Source: Gemmatimonadaceae bacterium (GTDB lineage Bacteria; Gemmatimonadota; Gemmatimonadetes; Gemmatimonadales; Gemmatimonadaceae). Taken from it: 32,607 nucleotides of DNA. The DNA lies in the NCBI GenBank assembly GCA_022843265.1, contig JALHNZ010000037.1:1-32607 (forward strand), in the 5' to 3' direction. The notes below the pieces were generated by a model. The model did not search any database. It saw only the letters and a program-made list of their open reading frames with translations, and had not been told where the DNA came from. The translations under genes were made by a program, and so were the position numbers. Below are positions 26,672-32,607 of this stretch, one piece after another (positions within the stretch are counted from its first letter, which is position 1; each line of letters begins with the position of its first letter).

Positions 26672-28192
26672 GTGGGTACGATTCTTCGGTTGGCCTTGCA
26701 GTCGCTGCGCAGTCGCGCATTTACGTCGTTTCTCACGGTGGCGAGCATTGCACTCAGTGTGACGTTGCTCGTGGGCATCGAGCATGTGCGTAGTGGTGTG
26801 CGCGAAAGCTTTGCCGGCACGATCCGTGGCGTGGATCTAATTGTTGGCGCACGTGGTGGATCGTTGCAGGTGCTGCTGTCCACCGTGTTTGGTATTGGTG
26901 CGTCGTCTACGGCCATTAGCTACGAAACGTACGAGCGCTGGGCCGAGCATCCGGCAGTGGCGTGGTCGATTCCGTTTGCGCTTGGCGACAGTCATCGCAG
27001 TTATCGGGTGATCGGCACCACGAACGAGTTTTATGAGCGCTATCGTTTTCGCCAGGATGGGCGCGTGTCGTTTGCGCAGGGGCGTGCGGCGGAAACAGAT
27101 GCTGATGTGGTGCTCGGCGCCGAGGTAGCATCGCGACTCGGATACACGCTCGGCGCGCCGATTGTGGTGACGCACGGATTGCAGGGTGGTGGCATTGCCG
27201 ATCACGAAGCGAATCCGTTCAAAGTGGTGGGCATTCTGAATCGCACGTTCACGCCGATCGATCGTGCGATTTACGTGACGCTCGGTGGTATCGAGGCCAT
27301 GCACGAGGATTTTGAGCAGGCGCCTTCGGCGGCTCCCGTGGCACCACCTGCGGGAACGCCGAGCATGCCTGGGGCGGAGGCACCTCCGGTGATGCCGGGT
27401 GCGACGCCGCCGGCCATGCCGGGATATGAGCCGCCGCCGGGCACGCCCACGATGCCGGGGGCGCAGCCGCCGGTCATGCCGGGTGCAACGCCGCCGGCCA
27501 TGCCGGGATACGAGCCGCCACCGGGCACGCCAACGATGCCGGGGGCACAGCCGCCGGTTGCCTCAACCGCGCCGGCGCCCTCCGCCGCGGAACCCGATGC
27601 CGACCACGACGACGATCACGCCGACCACGATCACGAAGCCGAGCAGGTCTCGTCGTTCATGGTTGGCACGAAGAACCGATTCGAGGCCCTGCAGCTGCAG
27701 CGCGAGATGAACACCGATCTGGTGGAGCCGGTGACGGCGATCATTCCCGGTGTGGCGCTCGGCGAACTGTGGCAGAATATCTCGAGCGCCGAAGTGGGAC
27801 TGCGCATTGTAGCCATGTTTGCGGTGGCGATCGGTCTGACGGGTATGCTTGTCGCGCTGTACAGCTCGCTCGACGCACGCCGCCGCGAAATGGCGATTCT
27901 GCGCGCCGTTGGCGCGGGGCCGCGCACCATTGTTTCGCTGCTCGTGATTGAGTCCGCATTACTGGCGTTTGTAGGCTGCGTACTCGGTGTGCTGTTTGTG
28001 TACGCGATTCTTACGGTTGGCCAGAGCGCGATTGAAGCGCGATCTGGTGTGCATCTCGCGATTCGTGCGCTCGGCGCTACTGAATGGAAGTATCTCGCGC
28101 TCGTGCTCGGCGCCGGCACGCTGATTGGCTTTGTGCCGGCAATCAAGGCGTATCGCACGTCGCTCACCGACGGTTTGAGTCCGCGCGCCTGA
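26672..28192 (+). CDS. ABC permease (FtsX/MacB type) with Pro-rich repeats and His/Asp cluster
   Basis: This 506-residue protein has type VII ABC permease topology: helix 1 at about 20-38, a large extracytoplasmic region (about 45-370), and three C-terminal helices (about 375-398, 420-448, 474-492) within an FtsX domain ('LDARRREMAILRAVGAGPRTI'). Within the extracytoplasmic part, residues about 218-308 form a Pro/Gly-rich repeat. It is followed by an acidic, His-rich run at 309-324 (His312, 316, 319, 321 plus several Asp). Such clusters commonly bind zinc or other divalent metals. The GTG start has AAGGAG about 7 bases upstream. The substrate is unknown, and metal is the favoured inference. 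Confidence 0.88.
   Translation: MGTILRLALQSLRSRAFTSFLTVASIALSVTLLVGIEHVRSGVRESFAGTIRGVDLIVGARGGSLQVLLSTVFGIGASSTAISYETYERWAEHPAVAWSIPFALGDSHRSYRVIGTTNEFYERYRFRQDGRVSFAQGRAAETDADVVLGAEVASRLGYTLGAPIVVTHGLQGGGIADHEANPFKVVGILNRTFTPIDRAIYVTLGGIEAMHEDFEQAPSAAPVAPPAGTPSMPGAEAPPVMPGATPPAMPGYEPPPGTPTMPGAQPPVMPGATPPAMPGYEPPPGTPTMPGAQPPVASTAPAPSAAEPDADHDDDHADHDHEAEQVSSFMVGTKNRFEALQLQREMNTDLVEPVTAIIPGVALGELWQNISSAEVGLRIVAMFAVAIGLTGMLVALYSSLDARRREMAILRAVGAGPRTIVSLLVIESALLAFVGCVLGVLFVYAILTVGQSAIEARSGVHLAIRALGATEWKYLALVLGAGTLIGFVPAIKAYRTSLTDGLSPRA
27353..27559 (+). repeat. 84-bp in-frame tandem repeat in the permease gene
   Basis: A full 84-bp unit (27401-27484) is followed by a 75-bp copy (27485-27559) with a handful of third-position changes. 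A 48-bp divergent partial copy precedes them (27353-27400). The 28-residue unit begins ATPPAMPGYEPPPGTPTMPG. The unit length is a multiple of three, so copy-number change would keep the frame. Confidence 0.92.
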
Positions 28193-28314: not shown

Positions 28315-29970
28315 ATGTCGTCACGTTTGTTCGCTTCTTCGGGCATCCTGCTAGCCCTCGCCGTCGCGGCCATGCCGCTCGACGCGCAGGGCCCGGGTGG
28401 TCGTGGCCCGGCTCGTCCGCTCGCCAAGGCGCCAGGTGCCACCGCGCCCGCTCTTGATAGCGCGCCGGAATACGTTCGTCGCACGCCAGCCACCGACGCG
28501 GGCATCACCCGTATTTATGAAGAGGGTATGCAGCGCTCGCAGGTCGCGAAGATTGCGCAGGTGCTGCTCGACTCCATTGGTCCGCGTCTCACAGGTTCGC
28601 CGAACATGAACCGCGCGCAGGACTGGGCGGTGTCGTTGCTCAAGAGCTGGGGCGTAGAAGCGAAGAAGGAACAGTACGGCACGTGGAACTCGTGGAAGCG
28701 CGGTCCGGCGTACGCATCACTTACGGCACCGCGTGTGAAGACACTCGACGCCACAATGCTGTCGTGGAGCGGCAATACCGGTGGACAGTTCGTTGAAGGC
28801 GGCGTGGTCATTCTTGAGCCGTATCAGACGCCGGAAGAGTTCCGCGCGTGGCTGCCGAAGGTGAAGGGCAAGGTGATTCTCTCCGGCGGACCGCGTTTGT
28901 CGTGCCGTTCGGCTGAGCAGATCAATCTGTTCGGCATGCCGAGCACGATTGAAGCGCTCAACCTGGAGCAGAATCAGCTTGCGGCCACCTACCGTGGCCT
29001 CAATCAGCGCGTGCCCACGTTCTATCAGGATGTGAAAGACGCGGGCGCACTGGCCGTGTTCGAATCGAGCTGGTCGGCGTACTCGGGTGTGCAGAAGATC
29101 TTCGGATCACCGCGCAACAATCCGCTGCCCACGATCGACATTGGCTGCGAAGACTACGGCATGCTGTTCCGTCTCGCGCAGAACAATCAGGGTCCGGTTG
29201 TAAAGCTGATGGCCGAATCGGAGTCGCTCGGCGAACAGCCAGTGTTTAACGTGGTAGGCACGATCAAGGGATCGGAGAAGCCGAACGAATACGTGATGCT
29301 CTCCGCGCACTACGACTCGTGGGAAGGACACTCGGGCGCCACGGACAACGGCACGGGTTCCGTGACGATGCTTGAAGCGCTGCGCATTCTCAAGACGGTG
29401 TATCCGCAGCCCAAGCGCACGATCATCATTGGGCTTTGGAGCGGTGAGGAGCAGGGGCTGAACGGCTCGGGCGGATATTCGGCCGATCATCCGGAAGTGA
29501 TTGAAGGGCTGCAGTTCCTGTTCAATCAGGACAACGGCACGGGACGCGTGGTGAGCATGGGCCCTGGCATCCTCCCCAAGAATGGTGCACGTCTGGCGCA
29601 GTACATGTCGGCGATGCCGTCTGACATCACGCAGTGGGTGCGCTTGTCGGGCCCTGGCGGCATTGGTGGTGGCACCGACCACGTCTCGTTCGCTTGTCGC
29701 GGCGCACCGGCGCTGACGCTCAATGCGCTGTCGTGGGACTACAGCAACAGCACGTGGCACACGCAGCGTGATTCGTACGACAAACTCATCATCGACGACG
29801 TGAAGAACAACGCGACGCTCACGGCGATGCTGGCGTACATGGCGAGTGAAGATCCGGAGCGCAGCTCACGTGAGCTGATCAGTCCGCTGCCAACGGGGCC
29901 GAACGGGCAGCCGATTACGATTCCGAACTGTGGTACGCCGACGCGGAGTTCGCAGGGGAATCGCAGGTAG
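28315..29970 (+). CDS. Secreted M28-family metallopeptidase
   Basis: This 551-residue exported peptidase has a signal peptide at 1-24 ('ILLALAVAAMPLDA|Q'). The zinc-binding core is typical of M28 aminopeptidases: His332 in 'SAHYDSWEGHSG', Asp344 in 'ATDNGTGS', Glu378-Glu379 in 'WSGEEQGLNGS', Asp406 in 'NQDNGTGR' and His482 in 'STWHTQRDSYD'. A PA-like insert probably occupies about 130-300. The closest style is the carboxypeptidase Q/aminopeptidase Y group used for peptide scavenging. The ATG at 28315 is fixed by AGGAG 6 bases upstream; the longer open frame upstream overlaps the permease and is not used. The first 217-bp repeat begins in its stop codon. Confidence 0.93.
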   Translation: MSSRLFASSGILLALAVAAMPLDAQGPGGRGPARPLAKAPGATAPALDSAPEYVRRTPATDAGITRIYEEGMQRSQVAKIAQVLLDSIGPRLTGSPNMNRAQDWAVSLLKSWGVEAKKEQYGTWNSWKRGPAYASLTAPRVKTLDATMLSWSGNTGGQFVEGGVVILEPYQTPEEFRAWLPKVKGKVILSGGPRLSCRSAEQINLFGMPSTIEALNLEQNQLAATYRGLNQRVPTFYQDVKDAGALAVFESSWSAYSGVQKIFGSPRNNPLPTIDIGCEDYGMLFRLAQNNQGPVVKLMAESESLGEQPVFNVVGTIKGSEKPNEYVMLSAHYDSWEGHSGATDNGTGSVTMLEALRILKTVYPQPKRTIIIGLWSGEEQGLNGSGGYSADHPEVIEGLQFLFNQDNGTGRVVSMGPGILPKNGARLAQYMSAMPSDITQWVRLSGPGGIGGGTDHVSFACRGAPALTLNALSWDYSNSTWHTQRDSYDKLIIDDVKNNATLTAMLAYMASEDPERSSRELISPLPTGPNGQPITIPNCGTPTRSSQGNRR

Positions 29971-30185
29971 TAGCAACAGCAAAAGCCACAGCCGGGGCCC
30001 GTCGGCGCGCTGCGCCGACGGGCCAAGGACACGAAAAACAGCGAAAGGACACGAAGAACAGCAACGGCAAACGATTTTTTGGAAACTGCAACAGCGCGCT
30101 GGTTACCTCAAAATCTGTTGCTCTTCTTCGTGTCCTTCGTGCTTTCGTGTCCTTCCCGCCGCAGTTCCCCCAGCATTAGGAGAGC
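29969..30185 (+). repeat. 217-bp structured direct repeat, copy A
   Basis: This copy aligns base for base with copy B (offset 1373), with 5 mismatches and no indels. It starts inside the M28 stop codon. From left to right: a CAA/AGC-rich start; a GC hairpin with 12-bp perfect arms (29996-30007 with 30013-30024); two tandem 20-bp units beginning AAGGACACGAA (30025-30064); about 53 bases with a run of six T; and an arm (30118-30154) whose reverse complement matches the tandem units with few gaps. The last part includes CCCCCAGCATTAGGAGAGC. It could form a long stem-loop. No protein is evident. It fills most of 29971-30227. Confidence 0.95.
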
Positions 30186-30227
30186 GTCGGTGGACTTCCC
30201 CCGACTCGCCCCTGTCCGGAGATCCCG

Positions 30228-31331
30228 ATGCCTGTGTTGAGCGAGTATCGACGTTTTCTGCGTGTTTGCATAGTCGCGATTGGATATGTCGCAGGTACAG
30301 CATCAAGTGCCGAGCTCGCGGCCCAGAATCGCGGCAAGCCCGCCGAGCCGCGGTTGCCGAATCCGTCTTCGCTGCTGAAGACGGGGCGCACGAGCGTAAG
30401 CGTTGGTACTGAGGGCGCGGGCCCGGCGATGATTGGGTATCCAAAGGCGTCTGTGTTGGATGCAAGCGGGAATATCTATGTGCTTGATGATGCAAACCAC
30501 ACCGTGCGCGCGTTCGATCTACGTGGGAACCTGCTGTCGACGGTGGGAAGAAATGGTCGTGGGCCGGGCGATCTGAGTCAGCCCTACAGCATTGCGCACG
30601 ACGGCGACAGTTTGCTGTACCTCGCCGATCAGCTGAACGGTTTGTCAGTCTATAGCGCGCGCAACGGACAGCTGCGTTATCTGCGCACGATGCTCACAAC
30701 CTCGCGACCCGGCGATGTTTGTGTTGCGCGTGGAAGGCTCTTTGTTGCGATGGCGCTCAACGACAAAGTGGTGCATGAAGTTTCGCCCAGGGGCGAGGTG
30801 CTGCAGTCCTTTGCGCCGACATTCGGGCTCGACAGTAACAAAGTTGTGCGAGAGTGGGGACGCACTGCGCCGGGAATCGCATTGCATTGCGAGAAGGAAT
30901 CCGACGGCATAACAATCCGCTACATAGACGGTGATCTCCGCTTGTACGCGCTGAACGGAACAATGCGATGGAGAGCCAAGCTGCCTTCATTTCAAGGCGG
31001 CAGAGTGATGGGAGACCTGCGTGACGGTTCGATCAACGCCACCTTCCCCAAGCACATCCTCTCGTCGCTCGTCGCGGTTGGGTCATATGTCGTTGTGCAG
31101 GCGTTCGACGTCGAGTACGGCCCTCGTCAACGACCACTAGGGGGACCTCGGCTACAGCGCGAGGTGAACGCCGTACTTACGTGGGTGCTGTCGAAATCAA
31201 ACGGCGCTGTGCTCGCGTTCGGAAAGTGGGGCCCGGCTTTAGCCGATGTTCGCGGAAACGTGGCGCTCGCGTTTGAAGAGGATCCGTTTCCGCGCGTGTG
31301 GGCGATGCCTCTTGAGGCGATCGTCCGGTAG
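30228..31331 (+). CDS. Secreted 6-bladed beta-propeller protein
   Basis: This 367-residue protein has a probable signal sequence or N-terminal anchor ('FLRVCIVAIGYVAGTASSAELA'). Repeated blade-like motifs follow, such as 'ASGNIYVLDDANHTVRAFD', 'GRNGRGPGDLSQPYSIAHDG' and 'SLLYLADQLNGLSVYS'. This NHL-like, 6-bladed beta-propeller form is common among secreted or periplasmic proteins of Bacteroidota and Gemmatimonadota; binding or sensor roles are usual and enzymatic roles rare. The ATG has GGAG 6 bases upstream. It is flanked by the two 217-bp repeats. Its codon use looks slightly less GC-extreme than its neighbours (for example several AGA and ATA codons), which is compatible with transfer. 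No specific function can be assigned. Confidence 0.82.
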   Translation: MPVLSEYRRFLRVCIVAIGYVAGTASSAELAAQNRGKPAEPRLPNPSSLLKTGRTSVSVGTEGAGPAMIGYPKASVLDASGNIYVLDDANHTVRAFDLRGNLLSTVGRNGRGPGDLSQPYSIAHDGDSLLYLADQLNGLSVYSARNGQLRYLRTMLTTSRPGDVCVARGRLFVAMALNDKVVHEVSPRGEVLQSFAPTFGLDSNKVVREWGRTAPGIALHCEKESDGITIRYIDGDLRLYALNGTMRWRAKLPSFQGGRVMGDLRDGSINATFPKHILSSLVAVGSYVVVQAFDVEYGPRQRPLGGPRLQREVNAVLTWVLSKSNGAVLAFGKWGPALADVRGNVALAFEEDPFPRVWAMPLEAIVR

Positions 31332-31341
31332 CAGCAATAGC

Positions 31342-31558
31342 AGTAGCAACAGCAAAAGCCACTGCCGGGGCCCGTCGGCGTGATGCGCCGACGGGCCAAG
31401 GACACGAAGAACAGCGAAAGGACACGAAGAACAGCAACGGCAAACGATTTTTTGGAAACTGCAACAGCGCGCTGTTTACCTCAAAATCTGTTGCTCTTCT
31501 TCGTGTCCTTCGTGCTTTCGTGTCCTTCCCGCCGCAGTTCCCCCAGCATTAGGAGAGC
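31342..31558 (+). repeat. 217-bp structured direct repeat, copy B
   Basis: This is the second copy, in the same orientation, starting 11 bases after the propeller gene stop and ending 18 bases before the ruvA stop on the other strand. The GC hairpin is at 31369-31397, the 20-bp tandem units at 31398-31437 and the inverted arm at 31491-31527. The hairpin loop differs from copy A (TGATG versus CGCTG) while the stem is unchanged, a sign that structure may be kept. It lies between convergent genes and fills most of 31332-31576. Confidence 0.95.
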
Positions 31559-31576
31559 CTGCGTCACTAGCGCAGA

Positions 31577-32173
31577 CTATCTGCCCAGTACCACCAGCGC
31601 CGCGCGCACCGTGCTCGCCACATCACCCTGCGCACCAACCTGACGCACCGCAGCGAGCGCCTCGGCTTCGCCGTAGCCGAGTGCAATAAGCGCACGTACA
31701 GATTCGTTATTCGGCGCAGCACCTCCAGCCCGCGCACGCGACACATCACCGCCGCCGGCCACGAGCAGGTCGTCTACCTTCTCGGAAAGATCAAGCACAA
31801 TCTGCTCGGCTTTGCGCTTACCCACGCGCGGTACGCGCATGAGCGTGGTGATGTCTTTGGCACGCAACACCTCGACCACACGCTCGGCGCCAATGGTCGA
31901 GAGAATGCCGAGCGCTAGCGACGGGCCAACACCCTTGGCCGTGAGCACACGCCGAAAGACATCGCGCTCGAGCCGCGATACAAACCCGTAGAGATCCCAC
32001 GCGTCTTCACGAACCGCGAGATGTGTGTGCAGCGTGAGTTCAGCACCATCGGCCGGGAGTTTCTCGAATACCGAGAGCGGGATGTGCACTTCGTACCCCG
32101 TGCCACCGCTCGTTTCGATTTCGATGAGCGCAACGGAGCGATAGACGAGACGACCAGTCAGCAGCGCGATCAT
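31577..32173 (-). CDS. ruvA: Holliday junction branch migration protein RuvA
   Basis: This 198-residue DNA-binding subunit tetramerises on Holliday junctions. The ATG at 32173 gives the conserved N-terminus 'MIALLTGRLVYRS', an OB-fold, then two helix-hairpin-helix motifs ('LTAKGVGPSLALGILS', 'LMRVPRVGKRKAEQIVLDL') and a C-terminal RuvB-contact domain ('VRALIALGYGEAEALAAVR'). Its ATG overlaps the ruvC stop (ATGA). Confidence 0.97.
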   Translation of the reverse strand: MIALLTGRLVYRSVALIEIETSGGTGYEVHIPLSVFEKLPADGAELTLHTHLAVREDAWDLYGFVSRLERDVFRRVLTAKGVGPSLALGILSTIGAERVVEVLRAKDITTLMRVPRVGKRKAEQIVLDLSEKVDDLLVAGGGDVSRARAGGAAPNNESVRALIALGYGEAEALAAVRQVGAQGDVASTVRAALVVLGR

Positions 32174-32607
32174 TGGCGCGAGGGCAACTTGAGGGAGGCG
32201 AACGTGGGCAACCGTGGGGCGAGCAGCGCACAAAGTGCGGCGGCAACACCATCCGCTGCGTCAGCGGGCTGCGGCGGAGATTTGAGGCGCAACAACTGCG
32301 CCACCATGTACTGCACTTGTTCTTTTGTTGCGGCGCCGCGTCCAACGATGGCTTTTTTGATCACTGCCGGGGCGTACTCTTCAATGGAAACGCCAGCCAG
32401 TTCACCGGCCAGCAGGATCACACCGCGTGCGTGGCCGAGTACCACGGTAGTGCGCACATTCTTGGCGTAGAACACATCTTCGACAGCGAGTGTTGACGGT
32501 GCGTGACGCGCAATCAACTCCGATACACCTTCATGTATGTCGCGCAATCGCGCCGCCAGCGGCTGTTCAGCTCGCGTGCGAATCACACCACACTCAATGA
32601 GCTCTGG
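32170..32607 (-). CDS. ruvC: Holliday junction resolvase RuvC (3' part, cut by window edge)
   Basis: This is the C-terminal 145 codons of the Holliday junction endonuclease. The visible part includes 'STLAVEDVFYAKNVRTTVVLGHARGVIL' (with the second catalytic acid, Glu, in 'AVEDVF') and 'PAVIKKAIVGRGAATKEQVQYMV'. The conserved 'ADAADGVAAALC' supplies the last acidic residues. The N-terminal catalytic Asp lies beyond the right edge, so the start is not seen. The reading frame is open to the edge. The stop overlaps the ruvA ATG. Confidence 0.95.
   Translation of the reverse strand, partial: PELIECGVIRTRAEQPLAARLRDIHEGVSELIARHAPSTLAVEDVFYAKNVRTTVVLGHARGVILLAGELAGVSIEEYAPAVIKKAIVGRGAATKEQVQYMVAQLLRLKSPPQPADAADGVAAALCALLAPRLPTFASLKLPSRQ

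Follow-up and report, generated by a model that had tools for sequence, protein, structure and literature searches.

The window, by which we mean the entire 32,607-nucleotide stretch of DNA that was analysed, contains a pair of direct repeats of 217 nt (Table 1). The first repeat follows a gene for a peptidase of family M28. The second lies between a gene for a six-bladed beta-propeller or NHL-like protein and ruvA. The stop codons of the two forward genes (29970 and 31331) are at, or at most 11 nt from, the starts of the repeats. The two copies are 98% identical, with no indels and with mismatches at just five positions (29990, 30008, 30010, 30036, and 30102 in copy 1, which correspond to 31363, 31381, 31383, 31409, and 31475 in copy 2). 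The nested architecture that the original prediction described is all present: a GC-rich hairpin is followed by two tandem 20-bp units (AAGGACACGAA..., starting at 30025 and 30045 in copy 1) and by an arm that is complementary to them (30115-30154). Two of the five mismatches had been placed in the loop of the GC-rich hairpin, with the stem intact; indeed, both are in the loop or at its edge, and 12 bp of the stem is unaffected.

Table 1. Features of the repeat pair and its neighbors in the window, and sites of a related subfamily elsewhere in the same genome (G000; C numbers are its contigs)
Feature	Position	Strand	Description
Peptidase family M28 gene	28315..29970	+	Upstream of copy 1; PF04389, E 1.6e-36; longer ORF from 28084
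Copy 1 of the 217-bp block	29969..30185		Follows the M28 peptidase gene; consists of a terminator-like GC hairpin and the hairpin element
GC-rich hairpin, copy 1	29996..30024		13-bp stem, 3-nt loop; terminator-like, no T-run on the + strand
Left arm of the element, copy 1	30025..30065	+	Two degenerate AAGGACACGAA units, lacking the outer part of a typical arm
Family unit, copy 1	30113..30188	-	CTCCTAATGCTGGGGGAACTGCGGCGGGAAGGACACGAAAGCACGAAGGACACGAAGAAGAGCAAC on the minus strand; model R1, 80.1 bits, E 3e-22
6-bladed beta-propeller/NHL-like gene	30228..31331	+	Between the two copies; PF17170 (E 3.7e-5), PF01436
Copy 2 of the 217-bp block	31342..31558		Between the beta-propeller gene and convergent ruvA
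GC-rich hairpin, copy 2	31369..31397		12-bp stem, 5-nt loop
Left arm of the element, copy 2	31398..31438	+	Counterpart of the copy 1 left arm
Family unit, copy 2	31486..31561	-	Model R1, 79.5 bits, E 5e-22
ruvA	31577..32233	-	Copy 2 separates it from the convergent beta-propeller gene; PF01330/PF14520/PF07499
CGCGAA subfamily sites	G000:C4:143440-143720; C5 22.78 kb, C6 5.8 kb, C8, C12 61.6 kb, C26, C29, C49, C90, C156		

The peptidase gene is syntenic with ruvA in three sister species (G002, G003, and G004), and the beta-propeller gene is missing from this interval in all three. The peptidase gene and ruvA adjoin in G002 and G004, where the spacer holds other hairpins, and are 2.1 kb apart in G003. 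In G004, a different GC hairpin occupies the place 3' of the orthologous gene that is equivalent to 29996-30024, and the spacer includes a CGCGAA-type half arm, which could reflect an older presence of such elements there. The spacer of G002 (C14:59500-66500) holds another long inverted repeat family, with CTGATCAGCTGAACAG-type units. In G003 (C12), the extra genes in the 2.1-kb spacer seem to resemble a toxin-antitoxin pair, to judge from a short antitoxin-like gene and its neighbor.

We found no close relative of the beta-propeller gene among 40 related genomes (the best matches reached 24-41% over parts), and its codon score is weakly host-like. There are 20 weakly similar matches to it elsewhere in its own genome. 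The 217-bp length is that of a local duplicate of a block, consisting of the terminator-like hairpin and the hairpin element, that flanks this extra gene. The duplication may have accompanied the gain of the beta-propeller gene between the peptidase gene and ruvA, and recombination at the repeat might have been the mechanism.

A BLAST search with the window repeat against its own genome (a draft of 4.63 Mb in 211 contigs, 95% complete) identified 43 places. What these have in common is a unit of about 80 nt, which the window copies carry on their minus strand. A sequence-only model of this unit (R1), built from 30 units, had 34 matches in the genome, with E values from 2.5e-22 to 1.5e-11. We count these as 33 unique units because the matches at the end of contig C4 and at the start of contig C12 are one sequence, with the two contigs overlapping inside a hairpin. 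The 33 units are spread over about 21 sites, nearly all as inverted pairs. (The sequence that C4 and C12 have in common lies within one inward-facing hairpin, and these contigs could be joined. A practical consequence is that such hairpins break assemblies, and they probably explain several of the contig breaks in this draft.)

The proposal that the 217-bp repeat might be a dispersed unit holds for the right-hand unit of about 80 nt and its inverted partner but not for the repeat as a whole. The leader and the GC hairpin are outside the dispersed family and recur in the genome only within the window pair, which is what would be expected if the pair were nothing more than a segmental duplication at this locus. 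However, the search of the genome that had been suggested as a check identified 31 unique copies of the right-hand unit at other sites, beyond the two in the window. We therefore rejected a local duplication as the sole explanation, and we consider it extremely improbable.

Each arm of about 80 nt contains three tandem CACGAA-type repeats, and the arms are paired in two opposite arrangements. In the 10 inward pairs, the CTCCTAATGC ends point towards each other, and the spacer between them is 26-48 nt in nine pairs and about 290 nt in the pair on contig C90. The long spacer of the C90 pair carries a second hairpin, so that a CGCGAA pair is nested in the loop of a CACGAA pair. In the roughly seven outward pairs, which include the window copies with their truncated left arms, the ends point away from a middle of 52-58 nt; the size of these pairs varies little, at about 190-200 bp, and their termini read CTCCTA...TAGGAG. 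In a few cases, a unit stands alone or is interrupted where a contig ends.

The two arms of a pair are often of different types. We recognized two types, GAAGAAGAGCAAC and GAAAACTGCAAC, and of 12 pairs, 10 combine the two as heterodimers (permutation test, p = 0.05). In the loop-side columns of the alignment, arms from one locus differ more than randomly paired arms do (0.688 vs. 0.557; p ~0.003 for a greater difference). In the 42 distal columns (25-66), they are more similar than expected at random (p = 0.004). We have moderate confidence that the heterodimeric pair is the unit. Single units have no consistent stem of their own: compared to shuffled sequences, their mean z score is -0.07 (range, -5.3 to 1.3).

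As RNA, both copies in the window are predicted to be far more stable than shuffled sequences, at -101.7 kcal/mol for copy 1 (z = -7.2) and -102.7 kcal/mol for copy 2 (z = -7.7), which bears out the large stem-loop that had been expected. Copy 1 folded as DNA has a z score of -8.1. The fold of the element near 67 kb of contig C6 is also very stable, with a z score of -13. Every paired copy could give one or both of its flanking transcripts a long 3'-terminal hairpin, which might plausibly affect mRNA ends as a side effect. Nevertheless, of the original suggestion of a conserved structured RNA at the 3' ends of genes, the position stands but the conserved RNA does not. The element is not shared with sister species (see below), a search of Rfam found no family at threshold, and covariation within the family was near zero: just 5 of 50 base pairs had changes on both sides (covariation term, +0.67). 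Because covariation within the family is weak, we did not use it as evidence for an RNA function.

We also considered a specific role as a terminator. Between 29800 and 31700, no intrinsic terminator (a GC-rich stem with a T-run) was found on the plus strand, and the minus strand contains weak 5-bp stems at a frequency near chance. In addition, several copies of the family adjoin a separate terminator-like hairpin. We therefore rejected this role.

The elements are located mainly between convergent genes. (Gene positions are from a simple codon-usage gene caller on a draft genome and are approximate.) Both neighbors are known for 18 sites; of these, 13 are flanked by convergent genes and the other 5 by tandem genes, and no site has divergent neighbors. 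As a background, we used 20 arbitrarily chosen stretches of 20 kb from the same genome (400 kb in total), in which 49 of 321 junctions (15%) are convergent; these account for 7% of intergenic bases and have a median spacer of 20 bp. For this bias, the binomial p is ~8e-8 at p0 = 0.15. The elements often fill the entire convergent spacer. This enrichment may arise from selection against insertions at other locations.

Another explanation for this location is that the hairpins serve a function at 3' ends, as bidirectional terminators, protectors of mRNA 3' ends, or insulators that separate converging transcription units, and were placed and retained by selection rather than by mobility. The convergent sites and filled spacers fit this explanation, as do the very stable folds (such as the z score of -13), the greater likeness of same-locus arms in columns 25-66, and the hairpins at the ruvA sites of G002 and G004, although the latter belong to other families. 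On the other hand, the plus strand of the element has no intrinsic-terminator signal, several copies lie beside a separate terminator-like hairpin, and the covariation term is near zero. The orthologous sites also argue against it. The element on contig C25 sits between two convergent genes, and in G002, G003, and G004, the corresponding spacer is about 120-175 bp, lacks the element, and retains a conserved, ordinary terminator hairpin. Since the sister species have the terminator alone, the hairpin arrived recently. Similarly, the element near 67 kb of C6 is missing from the orthologous spacers of G001 and G002. (For a site on contig C2, the best matches in sister species were 45-47% identical and may be paralogues.) We consider a functional 3'-end element to be unlikely, but it is the most serious of the alternatives.

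The suggested search of relatives gave a similar picture. When we searched 40 related genomes, including four from the same genus, with model R1, there were borderline matches and no confident copies, so the family seems to be restricted to its own species.

Overall, the units are dispersed, inverted in pairs, restricted to one species, and biased towards convergent genes; orthologous sites are empty, and related subfamilies are present. We think it likely that the window pair contains a member of a recently amplified and non-autonomous family of extragenic hairpins that resembles REPINs and BIMEs and occurs mainly in convergent spacers. A dispersed extragenic repeat family or non-autonomous mobile element was among the possibilities raised originally, and the 33 units, their restriction to one species, and the empty orthologous sites favor it. 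We infer that the element is actively mobile. The propagating unit would be an inverted pair of arms of about 80 nt, with three tandem CACGAA-type repeats each, which would insert mainly into short spacers between convergent genes. The head-to-head and tail-to-tail pairs might be circular permutations of one alternating array; such an array would fit a circular or single-stranded intermediate, which a mobilizing enzyme would presumably act on.

A mobile family could also be a miniature inverted-repeat transposable element (MITE) with terminal inverted repeats, moved by the DDE transposase of a present or former insertion sequence. The elements resemble MITEs in being short, non-coding, and palindromic, with inverted ends and a length of about 200 bp, and the outward pairs have CTCCTA...TAGGAG ends at a fairly constant distance. 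However, the arms occur in two opposite arrangements, and inward pairs, in which those ends are central, are no less common than outward pairs. The inverted arms are present, and no target-site duplication was noticed by eye at the copies that we read. A MITE seems improbable, and more so than a functional 3'-end element.

RAYT transposases are the usual partners of REP-type hairpins. We searched for the Y1_Tnp/RAYT family (PF01797) in the genome that contains the window, which is 95% complete, and found no match, while five control genomes did match. Since this search was empty, we rejected a RAYT-driven REP. In addition, by inspection of the 30-unit alignment, no GTAG or CGTC tag is conserved at either end. 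By the tests made, the element is not a REP, because a single unit has neither a stem nor a GTAG or CGTC tag and the genome has no detected RAYT.

REPs are palindromes of 20-40 bp, tagged at one end by GTAG or CGTC (PMC3733652). They are extragenic and are frequently found between convergent genes (PMC1525189), and doublets of REPs that form hairpins are known as REPINs (PMC3116915). As with the tagged REPs and BIMEs, our element forms both head-to-head and tail-to-tail dimers, has spacers of a comparable length, lies downstream of genes, and belongs to families that are confined to some species (PMC3733652), but its units have no such conserved tag or self-palindrome. Its extragenic location, with 13 of 18 sites convergent and none divergent, is also like that of REPs (PMC1525189). 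As with REPINs, nearly all of the units are in inverted doublets that form hairpins, and these doublets are the presumed replicative unit; further similarities are the extragenic location, species-restricted amplification, some singlets that resemble remnants, and possible circular or single-stranded intermediates (PMC3116915). In contrast to REPINs, each arm is not a short REP but spans about 80 nt and contains tandem CACGAA-type repeats, single units have no stem of their own, and no RAYT gene was found. In other words, a hairpin family with a REP-like lifestyle seems to spread in a genome without a detectable RAYT. If its mobilizer were found, it would represent a separate solution to the same problem that RAYT and REPs solve.

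The same genome contains a second subfamily in which CGCGAA replaces CACGAA in both arms (36 places by BLAST, or roughly 15 units); about 5 of 8 of its sites are convergent. Two further long hairpins, with CACGGAG and CGCAGAG heptamers, were found in the arbitrarily chosen stretches of this genome. Long hairpins are otherwise rare there: these two, which follow the design of our element, were the only ones in 184 spacers. A looser pattern (three CRCGAA blocks) had 24 matches in this genome and 4 in G002; it matched 32 of 298 genomes, in small numbers elsewhere, and some of those matches look like other repeats. In members of the same order (G088, G219, G238, and G242), the looser pattern occurs in inverted pairs. 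Across 84,980 species genomes, the CACGAA pattern identified two MAGs of Acidobacteria gp6 with the same inverted layout. The original prediction mentioned GGACACGAA-type repeats in other phyla, and these two MAGs confirm their presence there.

Within the phylum, other heptamers (CACGGAG, CGCAGAG, and CACAGAG) occur in the same inverted layout. A CRCRGAG pattern matched 42 of 200 genomes, with nearly equal counts on the two strands (such as 192/190, 76/77, and 62/62); a backward control was low in most genomes. The class is therefore present in a fifth of the sampled genomes from the phylum, and one genome has about 190 matches per strand. Regions from six of the positive genomes contain hairpins whose arms reach 78 nt and carry matching heptamers on both sides, and 11 of 22 sampled hairpins from relatives lie between convergent genes. 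Like our element, these CRCRGAG or CACGGA-heptamer hairpins have tandem 7-9-mers in each arm, form inverted pairs, and are often at the ends of genes, but the heptamer differs for each lineage, and no published name for them was found in open-access PMC text. Searching that text for the repeat strings gave unrelated matches only, which is not proof of novelty, and it yielded no relevant paper about extragenic repeats in Gemmatimonas. Apparently, this class of hairpins is widespread and undescribed, with a sequence that varies between species while the arms stay matched.

More tentatively, these hairpins might form a mobile superfamily across this phylum and others, with inverted blocks of tandem 7-9-mers, a lineage-specific heptamer, arms that change together, an enzyme other than RAYT, and a preference for convergent spacers. 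The link between the subfamilies would rest on layout and short motifs rather than on overall alignment, and we consider the superfamily possible but slightly doubtful. The concerted change of the heptamer in both arms is a testable case of arm coevolution, whether by selection, conversion, or template switching.

Elsewhere in the window, a gene for an FtsX/MacB-type permease (26672-28192) includes a tandem repeat rich in proline (MPGATPPAMPGYEPPPGTP...) and, after it, a stretch that is rich in histidine and aspartate and is possibly metal-binding.
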